This document shows, piece by piece, positions 16,687 through 27,293 of a stretch of 64,000 nucleotides of DNA; within the stretch, counting starts at the first letter, position 1, and the number at the start of each line of letters is the position of its first letter. The notes beneath the pieces are model-generated. The model worked only from the letters and a program-made list of their open reading frames with translations. It ran no database searches and was not told the origin of the DNA. Origin of the DNA: Bordetella parapertussis (lineage in GTDB: Bacteria > Pseudomonadota > Gammaproteobacteria > Burkholderiales > SG8-41). Made by a program: the position numbers and the translations under genes. Location: NCBI GenBank assembly GCA_945861275.1, contig CAMATZ010000023.1:1-64000 (forward strand). The letters run 5' to 3'.

Positions 16687-17451
16687 TCAAGACCCCGCAA
16701 TCGTCACCCCGCCATCCACCACGATCATTTGCCCGGTGACAAAAGACCCCGCCTCCGACGCCAGAAATACCGCCACGCCGCCGATGTCTTTCGGTGCGCC
16801 GATGCGGCGCAGCGGCGTTGTCGCTTCGCGAGATTTAAGCCGCGCCGCGTCCGACCACAGCGCTTTGGCAAAATCGGTCTTGACCAATCCCGGCGCAATG
16901 GTGTTGACGCGGATGTTCTGCGGCCCCCACTGCACCGCCAGCGCGCGGGCAAGCCCCGCTTCCGCCGCTTTGGATGTGCCATAAAGCCCCAGCACCTGAC
17001 TGCCGCGCAACGCGCCGATGCTGGAGATGATGATCATCGCACCGCCTTCGCCACGTTCACCCATCTGCGGCAGCACCATGTTGCCGAGCCAGAATACGCT
17101 CTTGACGTTGGTCTGCATGATTTTGTCAAACATCTCATCGGATGCCGTGGCCAACGGCCCGAAATGCGGGTTCGACGCCGCATTGCATACCAGGATGTCG
17201 ATGCGGCCCCACTGCTTGATGACGGTATCGACCAGGTTTTGCGCCGCAGCCTTGTCGCCCACGTTGCACGCGACGGCCATCGCTTCCTGCCCGCGCGCGG
17301 CGAACTCCGCCCGCACCGCATCGCACGCATCGGCTTTGCGGCTGGAGATCACTACCTTCGCGCCGGCATTCGCCATTTCTTCAGCGATGGATTTGCCGAT
17401 GCCTTTGGTGGAACCGGTTACCAGCGCGACTTTTCCCTTGAGACTGAACAT
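16687..17451 (-). CDS. SDR family oxidoreductase
   Basis: Short-chain dehydrogenase/reductase (254 aa), probably NAD(P)-dependent oxidation or reduction of a hydroxyacyl or alcohol substrate. The cofactor motif TGSTKGIG is near residues 12-19, followed by NAG in the VCNAASNPHF segment; the active-site Ser in IIISSIGALRG and YGTSK (Tyr-x-x-x-Lys) are intact. It ends with the usual FVTGQMIVVDGGVTI. It is divergent from the CMD-fold gene at 17498, with a 46-nt gap. Confidence 0.93.
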   Translation of the reverse strand: MFSLKGKVALVTGSTKGIGKSIAEEMANAGAKVVISSRKADACDAVRAEFAARGQEAMAVACNVGDKAAAQNLVDTVIKQWGRIDILVCNAASNPHFGPLATASDEMFDKIMQTNVKSVFWLGNMVLPQMGERGEGGAMIIISSIGALRGSQVLGLYGTSKAAEAGLARALAVQWGPQNIRVNTIAPGLVKTDFAKALWSDAARLKSREATTPLRRIGAPKDIGGVAVFLASEAGSFVTGQMIVVDGGVTIAGS

Positions 17452-17497
17452 GTTTGCTCCGGTTAAAATGACGACTTCAATTTACCACGGATCATCC

Positions 17498-18121
17498 ATG
17501 CCCAACATCACCATGCTCGATATCGAGCAATTGAAAAACACGCGGCTCAAACCGTACATCGAAAAATGCCTTATCAACAAGGCGCCCGATCCCGGCTTTC
17601 ATGCCATGATGGGCCACAACATTGCGTTGTGCGAGGCGATGTTCGTGGCCTGGGATACCGTGTTCAACAGCGGCAGCGTGGATCACAAACTGAAAGAGAT
17701 CATCCGCGTGCAACTCTCGCGCATGGCCTCGTGCGTGTATTGAGGCAACGTCCGGTCCGCTTCGGCGAAGCGGCAGGGTCTGACCGAAAACGATATCGAC
17801 GAGGCGATTGCGAACTATGCGGACAGCGCGCGCTTCAGCGCCGCCGAAAAGATCGCGCTGCGCTACAGCGAATGGATGGCGCTCGATCCCGAAAAAATCG
17901 ATGCCGCGTTTCATGACGCGCTGCGCCTGCACTATAGCGAAGAGGAAATCATCGAACTTGGCGCGTTCATCGGCTTTAACATCGGCTATCACACGTTTTT
18001 CGGCTCGCTCAGGTTCTACCCGATGTTTGCGCCCGACGGGCGGCTGGTGAATCAGGCGGAATCCGCGCGCCTCTACGGCGATGCCCCTGCCACGCTCGCG
18101 GCGGCACGGAGCGCAGCATGA
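17498..18121 (+). CDS. CMD/AhpD-fold protein with in-frame TGA: candidate CxxU selenoprotein
   Basis: One continuous frame of 207 residues containing an in-frame TGA at codon 82 (17741-17743). The residues around it, MASCVY-TGA-GNVRSASAK, align with the redox CxxC of carboxymuconolactone-decarboxylase/AhpD proteins (CxYC), so TGA replaces the second cysteine (Cys79-x-x-Sec82). After the TGA the frame stays open for 125 codons with family-like sequence (GLTENDIDEAI, FSAAEKIALRYSEW, SEEEIIELGAFIGFNIGY) that parallels the next gene. The true stop overlaps the next start as ATGA. A 7-bp hairpin sits at the expected SECIS distance. The alternative is a nonsense mutation or sequencing error making an 81-residue fragment. 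No sel genes are in the window. Confidence 0.75.
17757..17773 (+). promoter_or_regulatory. Candidate bacterial SECIS hairpin
   Basis: CCGCTTC-GGC-GAAGCGG forms a perfect 7-bp stem with a GGC loop. The loop starts 21 nt after the in-frame TGA at 17741-17743, within the UGA-to-loop distance known for bacterial SECIS elements, and begins with GG as many do. It lies inside the coding frame, as bacterial SECIS elements must. Function is inferred from position and structure only. Confidence 0.5.
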
Positions 18122-18663
18122 GCGCGCCGCACATCTCGCCGCTCGCACCCGCGGGGGCAGTGGATGCCGAGTTGCAGGCGCTGCTCGCGCACTGCGACGC
18201 GCTGGGGGTTCCCGATGCCCGCTTCACCCGCATACTCGCGCGCGTGCCCGCCTACGCCAAGGCGCTGTTGCAGGCGATGCGGGTCTCGCACACCGAAGGC
18301 AGCATCGATCACCGCCTGAAAGAAATCATCCGCGTGCAACTCGCGCGCACCGCGGGTGATGGTTATTTCGCCGCCTTGCGTTCGTCACAGGCGCGGCAGC
18401 AGGGGCTGACCGAAGCGCGCATCGACGCCGGCTCGGCGGATTTCGAAAAAGACGCACGCTTCACGCCGGCTGAAAAATGGGCGCTGCGCTACGCCCATGA
18501 GATGTACACCAACCCGCAAACCGTAAACGCCGCCTTCTACGCCGAAGGCAAGCGCCACTACAGCGAAGCCCAGATCATGGAACTCGGCGCGTTTATCGCG
18601 TTTCACTACGGCATGCAGGCGTGGGCGCGCACGCTGAATTTGCGAGGCGGCGAATCCCCATGA
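18118..18663 (+). CDS. CMD/AhpD-fold protein, cysteine-less paralogue
   Basis: 181-residue carboxymuconolactone-decarboxylase-like protein, clearly paralogous to its upstream neighbour (HRLKEIIRVQLART, QGLTEARID, FTPAEKWALRYAHEMY, YSEAQIMELGAFIAFHYGMQ). Where the neighbour has CVY-TGA it reads GDGYFAAL, so the redox cysteines are absent and it cannot use CxxC chemistry itself. It starts by an ATGA overlap, implying translational coupling to full-length readthrough of the upstream gene. The two may form a mixed oligomer; the reaction is unknown. Confidence 0.9.
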   Translation: MSAPHISPLAPAGAVDAELQALLAHCDALGVPDARFTRILARVPAYAKALLQAMRVSHTEGSIDHRLKEIIRVQLARTAGDGYFAALRSSQARQQGLTEARIDAGSADFEKDARFTPAEKWALRYAHEMYTNPQTVNAAFYAEGKRHYSEAQIMELGAFIAFHYGMQAWARTLNLRGGESP

Positions 18664-18811
18664 CGCGCAGCAGGTGTTTTCATCGCCGAAGACGGCGCAG
18701 TTTCTACCCGCACACGCGAGGCGTTCGCAACGTTTCTGCGCAGCGAAGCCGTAAAATGGGCGCAAGCGATCCGACGCGCCGGAATTATTGCTGAAAAATC
18801 ATCAGGTCATC

Positions 18812-20008
18812 ATGAACACACAACCTTTGCCGCTTGCCGGCATGCGCATCATCGAATTGGGCCACACCGTGATGGGACCCTCGTGCTCGGTCGTGTTCGC
18901 CGATCTGGGCGCAGATGTGATCAAAGTTGAACCACCCGAAGGCGAGCGCACACGCCACAACGGCGGATTTGGCGCGGGGATGTTCCCGCTCTACAACCGC
19001 AACAAACGCAGCATCTGCCTCGACCTGAAATCAGATTCCGGCAAAACCATCGTGCACCAGCTTATCGCCACCGCGGACGCGCTGATCGAAAACTTTGCCG
19101 CCGGCACCATGGATAAACTCGGCCTGGGGTACGACGAACTGTCAAAACGCAACCCGCGGCTTATCTACTGCGCGTTAAAGGGCTTTCTGGGCGGCCCCTA
19201 CGAACATCGCCCCGCGCTGGATGAAGTGGTGCAGTTCATGGGCGGACTGGCTTACATGACCGGGCCGCGCGGCCGGCCGCTGCGCGCGGGCGCGTCGGTG
19301 GTCGATCTCATGGGCGGCATGTTCGGCGCCATTGGCATCCTTTCCGCGCTGCGTGAGCGCGAACGCACCGGGCGCGGGCAACTGGTAAAAAGCGCGCTGT
19401 TTGAATCCACCGCGTTTATGGTGGCGCAACACATGACCGGACAAGTCGTCACCGGCAATGAGCCGCCGCCGATGCCGGAAAAATTGAGCTCCTGGGCCAT
19501 TTATGAGACCTTCACCACCGTGGACGCAAAAACCATTTTCATCGCCATCACCAGCGACAATCACTGGCGCGCCTTCTGCAAGGAATACCAACTCGGTGAT
19601 CTGCTCGCCGACCCTTCGCTCAAAACCAATCCGCAGCGCGCGGCACAGCACGACCGGCTGGCGCCGGTGGTCGAGAACATCGTCAAGCTGCGCACGTATG
19701 CCGACATGGCCGCAGTGCTGGAACGATTGAGCATTCCGTTTGCGCCACTCGCCAGGCCGTCTGATCTGTTTGACGATGTGCATCTGAATCAAGGCGGCCA
19801 TATGCTTGACATGCATTTTCAGAACGGCAAACGCGCCAACATTCCCGGACTGCCACTGGAGATGGGCGAACATGATCTGTCGATCCGCATGCAAACGCCT
19901 GGCAAGGGTGAACACACGCGTGAGGTGCTGACGGATATAGGCTTTAGCACCGCACAAATCGATGCCTGGGTCGCGCAAGGCGTGGCCCTGTTGCCGGACA
20001 AACCGTAG
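18812..20008 (+). CDS. CaiB/BaiF family CoA-transferase
   Basis: Class III CoA-transferase (398 aa), moving CoA between carboxylic acids. It has the N-terminal LAGMRIIELGHTVMGPSCSVVFADLGADVIKVEPPEG, NRNKRSICLDLKS and ADALIENFAAGTMDKLGLGY. The catalytic aspartate is in ASVVDLMGGMFGAIG, and the GRGQLVKSALFESTAF tail of the active-site region follows. Start ATG 18812 (MNTQPLPLAGMR); a TTG eight codons earlier is less likely. It is followed after 18 nt by an enoyl-CoA hydratase, so the two probably activate and process an acyl-CoA together. Confidence 0.94.
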   Translation: MNTQPLPLAGMRIIELGHTVMGPSCSVVFADLGADVIKVEPPEGERTRHNGGFGAGMFPLYNRNKRSICLDLKSDSGKTIVHQLIATADALIENFAAGTMDKLGLGYDELSKRNPRLIYCALKGFLGGPYEHRPALDEVVQFMGGLAYMTGPRGRPLRAGASVVDLMGGMFGAIGILSALRERERTGRGQLVKSALFESTAFMVAQHMTGQVVTGNEPPPMPEKLSSWAIYETFTTVDAKTIFIAITSDNHWRAFCKEYQLGDLLADPSLKTNPQRAAQHDRLAPVVENIVKLRTYADMAAVLERLSIPFAPLARPSDLFDDVHLNQGGHMLDMHFQNGKRANIPGLPLEMGEHDLSIRMQTPGKGEHTREVLTDIGFSTAQIDAWVAQGVALLPDKP

Positions 20009-26735: not shown

Positions 26736-27293
26736 ATGCCCGAGACACCCACTTTCGGACGTTATGCCGAGATTCCCTATGATCGGATGACGCCGGAGCA
26801 GCAGGAAGGCTATCGGTCGATGATCGAGTCGCGCGGCCGGCTGCCCGGTCCGAACAAGATCTTCGTGCACAATCCCAAGCTGGCGAAAGTGATAGGTCCG
26901 TTTGGGGGGCATTTCCGCAAGGGCTACTCGCTGAGCGAGCGCGAGCGTGAGATTGCGGTCAACGTCATCAACAGCAAATGGCATTCGGCCTACCCGACCA
27001 ATGCGCATGAACGGGCCGCCAAGGCGGCCGGGCTGCCGCCCGACAAGGTCGAGGCAATACTCTCGGGCCTGCCGACCTCGTTCTCCGACAAACGCGAACA
27101 GGTGGTCTACGAAATGGCGATCTGCCTCACTAATTCGCGCTGGGTGGCGAAAGGTCTTTATGACCGCGCGGTCGAAGCTCTCGGCCATGTCGGCATCACC
27201 GACGTGATCACCCTGATGGGCCATTACAGCAGCGTCTCGATGACGCTCGCCTTCTACGACGTGCCGGCCGGCGCGACCGGCATCGAGCGCTGA
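26736..27293 (+). CDS. Carboxymuconolactone decarboxylase (CMD)-fold protein
   Basis: 185-residue AhpD/CMD-like protein (LPGPNKIFVHNPKLAKVIGPFGGHFRKGYSLSEREREIAVNVI ... HERAAKAAGLPPDKVEAIL). The usual CxxC is replaced by SAYPTNAHE, so thiol redox chemistry is excluded; a decarboxylase, isomerase or binding role remains. GCGGAGA ribosome-binding site. Part of the catabolic run with an NTF2-like protein and an SDR. Confidence 0.9.
   Translation: MPETPTFGRYAEIPYDRMTPEQQEGYRSMIESRGRLPGPNKIFVHNPKLAKVIGPFGGHFRKGYSLSEREREIAVNVINSKWHSAYPTNAHERAAKAAGLPPDKVEAILSGLPTSFSDKREQVVYEMAICLTNSRWVAKGLYDRAVEALGHVGITDVITLMGHYSSVSMTLAFYDVPAGATGIER

Follow-up and report, generated by a model that had tools for sequence, protein, structure and literature searches.

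AhpD, a protein of the CMD fold, has a catalytic His after its CxxC motif and works through a proton relay. The principle of a CxxU selenoprotein among CMD/AhpD-like proteins is already published: the Sargasso Sea survey gives 4 CMD and 27 AhpD-like selenoprotein sequences (PMC1088965), GOS gives 70 selenoproteins and 207 Cys homologues for AhpD-like 2 (pfam02627; PMC2398784), and reviews also cover such proteins (PMC9312934, PMC13188914). According to one of these reviews, for nearly all selenoproteins there are homologues in which a different residue replaces Sec (PMC9312934). The terms AhpD, carboxymuconolactone, alkylhydroperoxidase, and CxxU are absent from the deep-Sep paper (PMC12013277), and in the literature that we covered, mostly papers outside subscription and some of them in part, we found no description of a motif-less paralogue as the partner of a CMD/AhpD-like selenoprotein or of an Arg at the AhpD-like His position in such a selenoprotein.

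The predicted Sec gene and its family

The DNA analyzed here (the window, 64,000 nucleotides) is part of contig C23 of a 5.5-Mb assembly in 95 contigs; to judge from how the relatives are named, the source is probably a betaproteobacterium. Wrong binning of this contig was considered and rejected, because the RelA/SpoT-like protein that it encodes (named by eye) shares 98% and 97% identity with the counterparts in two congeners; the contig belongs to this organism. An earlier note on the window had proposed a selenoprotein of the CMD/AhpD fold in which a TGA occupies the second Cys position of a CxxC motif (Cys79-x-x-TGA), followed by 125 codons and an ATGA overlap with the next gene. The frame and all of these features were confirmed (Table 1), with the overlap at 18118-18121, and the translation around codon 82 reads ...SRMASC-V-Y-(TGA)-GNVRSASAKRQG....

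Table 1. Coordinates of the Sec gene, its neighbors, and the Sec machinery of the same assembly
Feature	Position	Strand	Remarks
Sec-containing CMD-fold gene (predicted)	17498..18121	+	207 residues with Sec82; last TGA is the real stop; orthologues found; PF02627, 39 bits
TGA, putatively read as Sec82 (codon 82)	17741..17743	+	TGA in 63/63 distinct orthologues
Cys79, opening residue of CxxU	17732..17734	+	TGC or TGT in 63/63
Glu67	17696..17698	+	Invariant in 31 aligned rows; aligns with Glu of PA0269 (2o4d)
Arg86	17753..17755	+	Invariant in 31/31 aligned rows; aligns with His of PA0269
SECIS-like hairpin, 7 bp, GGC loop	17757..17773	+	Synonymous sites nearly invariant in codons 17759-17770
Paralogue, Asp/Phe replacing Cys/Sec	18118..18663	+	PF02627; start overlaps Sec-gene stop (ATGA); 41% identical to Sec protein
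Segment missing from congener G005	17510..18799	+	Flanks abut there; holds both genes and little else
Short-chain dehydrogenase, divergent flank	16687..17451	-	Also near the pair in G018
CoA-transferase family III, downstream flank	18788..20008	+	Also near the pair in G018
selA	C6:32846-34192		586 bits; same assembly
tRNA-Sec	C6:29548-29638		74.5 bits; anticodon tca; same assembly
selB	L025:6639-8714		SelB-specific beta-barrel and winged-helix domains; same cluster as selA/tRNA-Sec
selD	C21:19971-20891		427 bits; one in-frame TGA in this gene too

The placement of the protein in the CMD superfamily held, with a PF02627 score well over the gathering cut-off of 23 bits, but the protein is not AhpD itself: the AhpD core model TIGR00778 scored 20.3 bits, below its cut-off of 27.8, and Arg86 is found where a His is expected after the CxxC in AhpD. 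The Sec protein and AhpD have the CMD fold and the Glu and C-x-x-C/U positions in common, but, by comparison with PA0269, a CxxCxxxH homologue, the His is replaced, and the proton relay of AhpD therefore cannot be the same in the Sec protein. The predicted structure of the Sec protein is helical (pLDDT 80.4, pTM 0.76), and that of the paralogue scored 91.2 and 0.88, respectively. The best NCBIfam match, NF053654 (YciW-related (seleno)protein), matches all 31 members scanned, but its score for the window protein, 66.9 bits, lies far below the cut-off of 310; no NCBIfam model exceeded its cut-off for this protein, and the scans suggest that the same holds for the other 30 members (best E 1.2e-19, NF053654). 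Standard annotation would therefore probably break up or shorten genes of this type. In the PDB, the family profile matched best to the debrominase Bmp8 (6ohi, 6ohj; 5e-13), whose CxxC aligns with the CxxU. Bmp8 was set aside as a functional clue because the match is not specific: the motif-less paralogue likewise has Bmp8 as its top match, and, with the window protein as lone query, Bmp8 ranks behind three other CMD-family chains.

The earlier note's statement that Sec occurs in AhpD-like proteins of metagenomic surveys was borne out by two surveys (PMC1088965, PMC2398784). As far as the available descriptions go, PF02627 and CxxU are common to the Sargasso/GOS CMD-like selenoproteins and the Sec protein (PMC1088965, PMC2398784, PMC13188914); by the same descriptions, through which alone the sets were compared and which leave room for overlap with the Sec clade here, GOS AhpD-like 2 includes its Cys homologues, whereas no Cys form is seen among our 63 orthologues.

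Codon 82, its orthologues, and the Sec machinery

Contigs were searched with peptide patterns that excluded codon 82, which yielded 62 loci; with relatives, these gave 79 orthologue matches (>55% identity, reaching residue 100), of which 63 are distinct around codon 82. Two loci, L043 and L118, were left out at this codon, as both stop at residue 76. The orthologues are 60-100% identical to the window protein and come from assemblies named Beta- or Alphaproteobacteria, Tectomicrobia, Nitrospinaceae or Nitrospinae, and Chloroflexi. The search for homologues with TGA or Cys at codon 82, which the earlier note had proposed as a check, returned TGA in every distinct orthologue and Cys in none, and the codon of Cys79 is TGC or TGT throughout. 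The identical base in so many assemblies makes a sequencing error at codon 82 untenable. Random stops in relatives, which the earlier note would have held against Sec insertion, were not the pattern seen: the relatives share the same TGA, with the exception that L042 carries an extra in-frame stop upstream. L042 and L108 also appear to have a deletion, and the extra stop and apparent deletion make the dN/dS of L042 against L030 (1.78 upstream) meaningless. Downstream of the TGA, dN/dS ranged from 0.13 to 0.27 in seven comparisons with the window gene, and by this measure that part of the gene is under purifying selection. The orthologues end in TGA (26), TAA (20), or TAG (14), and three run off their contig.

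Some of the names attached to these sequences call for comment. L096, named Chloroflexi, closely resembles L094 (Nitrospinaceae) and may be misbinned. L057 and L070, whose titles are marked MAG, are listed under pathogen names (Bordetella parapertussis, Klebsiella pneumoniae); the coordinates of L057 are those of the G018 locus, from the window's family, so the name of L057 is probably wrong. By contrast in kind of record, L073 is Rhodoplanes tepidamans DSM 9987, a TGA carrier with a strain name and with tRNA-Sec and selA.

The nearest CxxC homologues found are ~30-36% identical to the window protein, and one of them (G000:C1:107894, ~30%) lies in the same genome. Among 398 genomes of the phylum searched at E 1e-15, the sole full-length match was in the organism's own genome, alongside three weak matches of 60-63 bits, and none of 13 congeners had an orthologue of the Sec gene. 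Plasmid carriage was considered and rejected: 13 plasmid records matched, all at <60% identity and none spanning 80% of the query.

The earlier note had named absence of selA, selB, selC, and selD as grounds for doubting Sec insertion; all four were found in the same assembly (Table 1). We also note a thioredoxin-reductase-like pyridine nucleotide-disulfide oxidoreductase at L025:5709-6629 (- strand), between selB and tRNA-Sec. The TGA gene was present in 16 of 149 genomes, the organism's own included (G023, with a fragment only, was counted among those without it). A strong tRNA-Sec, defined as 66 bits or more and present by hand count in 89 of the 149, was found in 15 of the 16 TGA-gene genomes versus 74 of the 133 others (Fisher p 0.002); the exception, G124, has no convincing tRNA-Sec and is 84% complete. 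When 10 further carriers were picked from the 62 loci, eight had a tRNA-Sec of >67 bits and a selA over cut-off, and two (G536 and G542) had neither tRNA-Sec nor selA over cut-off. The pair formed by the Sec gene and its paralogue lies ~0.7 kb from tRNA-Sec in G075, ~7 kb in G083, and ~2 kb in G540, if L098 is contig 27 of that bin.

The hairpin downstream of the TGA

A bacterial SECIS is a stem-loop just 3' of the UGA with a G in its apical loop. The perfect 7-bp stem with a GGC loop claimed by the earlier note was verified; it begins 14 nt after the TGA, with 20 nt between the TGA and the loop, so that the first loop base is the 21st. Codons +6 to +9 after the TGA (GCT TCG GCG AAG) are identical in 62-63 of the 63 orthologues, against a mean synonymous identity of 0.48 at 75 other codons of the Sec gene. 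The homologues served as controls for codons +5 to +10: neither the motif-less paralogue (56 distinct; 0.42 versus 0.46 outside) nor the CxxC homologues (17; 0.58 versus 0.55 outside) displayed a group excess, although the single codon +6 reached 0.86 in the latter set. Stem cells pair in 97.7% of cases across the 56 distinct rows, compared with 28-66% when the stem is slid, and the stem pair 18-32 is C-G in 31, U-A in 16, and U-G in 9. Changes on both sides were seen at a single stem pair, and two other pairs are broken in 5 and 4 of the 56 rows; the rows are related, and independent events are therefore fewer than cells.

We then applied the limits of bSECISearch, which ask, at 16-37 nt past the TGA, for a stem of at least 6 pairs whose loop has G as its first or second base. 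Of the 62 distinct orthologues, all with the loop at +20, 58 had such a hairpin; so did 14 of the 15 other TGA-bearing CMD genes (the 11 shown place the loop at +19 or +20). Among homologues without the TGA, it occurred in just 3 of the 56 paralogues and one of the 17 CxxC genes, and codon shuffles produced it in 5-16%. The folding energy of the stretch was not lower than that of dinucleotide shuffles (z 0.31, -0.23, and 0.68), and an Rfam search with E up to 10 returned no SECIS match and one unrelated sRNA at 0.59. As the folding energy is ordinary, the case for a SECIS rests on conservation and on the homologue controls.

The genome to which the window belongs contains a second CMD-fold gene with an in-frame TGA at a CxxU (CHYU-TQHN; G000:C1:17383-17691, - strand; L022/L026), which has a possible hairpin (by eye) and scores below the cut-offs of NF041238, NF053654, and TIGR01926. 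Other CMD subfamilies with a TGA at the same position are represented in relatives by L044, L128-L137, L140, and L141 (15 distinct genes, L022 included), and the TGA label changes at least three times on the tree (see below); four of the proteins were tested, and none passes an NCBIfam cut-off. Six CMD matches in G056 contain one internal TGA, and for four of them its position was seen to be CxxU. In the window itself, the protein at 26736-27293 has weak similarity to TIGR01926 (26.6 bits, cut-off 81.8) and no Pfam match.

Could codon 82 nevertheless be something other than Sec? A former CxxC gene hit by a nonsense mutation, or misread in sequencing, is conceivable in that the TGA is one base from TGC/TGT and a CxxC homologue resides in the same genome, but the same TGA in all orthologues, the purifying selection downstream of it, and the conserved hairpin make this explanation extremely improbable. 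Read-through is possible without Sec, whether by suppression of the UGA with an ordinary amino acid, by general read-through, or by use of UGA as a sense codon; however, of the 60 distinct orthologues with a visible end, 26 use TGA as the terminator of this same gene, so UGA is not sense throughout, and the presence of the Sec machinery, the location of the TGA at a redox Cys position, and the fixed offset of the hairpin all speak against these alternatives. We consider this second group of explanations very unlikely. The selA/B/C/D genes, the conserved TGA, and the hairpin support the earlier note's preference for Sec insertion over a nonsense mutation, and, judged from these sequence comparisons, the TGA at codon 82 would almost certainly be decoded as Sec.

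The motif-less paralogue and the proposed mechanism

The gene that follows encodes a paralogue of the Sec protein, a relationship on which the earlier note is silent; the paralogue has a Cys elsewhere than at the motif positions. It adjoins the Sec gene in 56 of 62 loci and in 56 of the 57 with room for it (five run out of sequence); at L116 the paralogue is missing although the sequence extends far enough. The paralogue's motif is DxxF in 49, DxxS in 6, and AxxF in 1 of the 56, with Cys never at either place, and the Glu, Asp, and Arg of its site are invariant in 28 aligned rows. In several relatives, such as L058, L059, L061, and L083, the Sec-gene match ends ~70-140 bases before the paralogue match starts, and the ATGA overlap is thus not general. 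In a tree of 64 chosen rows, the Sec group (91/78) and the paralogue group (100/100) were joined as sisters at 92/79, with the values 91/78 and 92/79 below the program's firm mark and with a program warning about long branches. The distance matrices of the 56 Sec/paralogue pairs correlate (r 0.82, permuted maximum 0.21), which would be expected of genes that travel together but is in part a reflection of shared species history. We also observed an alphaproteobacterial locus (L100:3001-4893) in which two TGA-bearing copies flank a motif-less paralogue.

The congeners G004 and G005 match both flanks of the pair at 91-95% DNA identity and have neither gene; in G004, the missing segment is 17484-18799, with 113 unaligned bases in its place. 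In G018, which belongs to another genus, the dehydrogenase and the CoA-transferase again flank the pair, there with additional DNA on either side of it. We considered joint loss in the congeners and dropped it: as 0 of 13 have an orthologue, gain here by recombination is as likely as loss there. A thioredoxin-like frame lies directly upstream of the Sec gene, on the same strand, in 10 of 61 loci (L079 being doubtful), and in nine of the 61 it carries a CxxC (that of L113 is cut short); two of the nine were tested, and both match PF00085. No thioredoxin-like gene stands beside the Sec gene in this window. An attempt to read function from the neighbors was abandoned, since the flanks vary apart from the paralogue and thioredoxin (other family names were assigned by eye), and the pair counts of the neighbor-ORF survey were left out, as it often took antisense frames.

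Overall, we favor, with a probability of roughly 85%, a CMD-fold selenoprotein with hairpin-directed Sec82 that is paired with a motif-less paralogue, perhaps as a thioredoxin-linked redox unit. SelB and tRNA-Sec, directed by the hairpin, would decode UGA 82 as Sec, a strongly indicated step that would create the Cys79-x-x-Sec82 redox pair. Sec82 would then attack the substrate, Cys79 would close a selenenylsulfide, and thioredoxin would reduce the latter; in this reaction the substrate reduced is probably a peroxide or some other electrophile. The Sec protein and the paralogue may form one mixed assembly, with redox chemistry in the Sec subunit only. Thioredoxin is suggested as the reductant by the thioredoxin-like gene directly upstream in nine of the 61 loci, and we rate a thioredoxin-linked reductase at slightly under even odds. 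For the heteromeric unit the odds may be even, and they are put no higher because joint loss of the pair is unsupported.

Sec could also be inserted while the paralogue acts independently, the Sec protein working alone as a homo-oligomer. L116, which lacks the paralogue despite having room, fits such an arrangement, and one event can move two neighbors, so that their joint absence is modest evidence for a functional unit; against this stand the adjacency at 56 of 57 loci, the ATGA overlap here, the sister grouping in the tree (not strongly supported), and the correlated distances. We regard the homo-oligomer as a serious contender, if somewhat less probable than not. Another possibility is that the UGA is mainly a selenium switch, low selenium giving an 81-residue product and less coupled translation of the paralogue. 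The ATGA overlap would indeed tie paralogue translation to read-through in this genome, but the gaps in the relatives named above show that such coupling would not be general, and we find the switch improbable. Returning to the paired selenoprotein, its boldest version would be an obligate two-subunit, always-Sec CMD enzyme, fed by thioredoxin, in which the paralogue keeps Glu and Arg and which performs a reduction beyond the reach of Cys, e.g. selenium-dependent reductive dehalogenation. This is a long shot, for which Bmp8 and the deiodinases offer a parallel; if true, selenium-dependent reductive dehalogenation on a CMD fold would be a bacterial counterpart of the deiodinases.

In the Sec clade, the 63 TGA orthologues include no Cys form, the CxxC homologues are distant, and a motif-less sister adjoins the gene. 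The carrier Rhodoplanes tepidamans DSM 9987 makes the Sec claim testable, and the Sec gene with its motif-less sister offers a compact system in which one can ask why selenium is retained.
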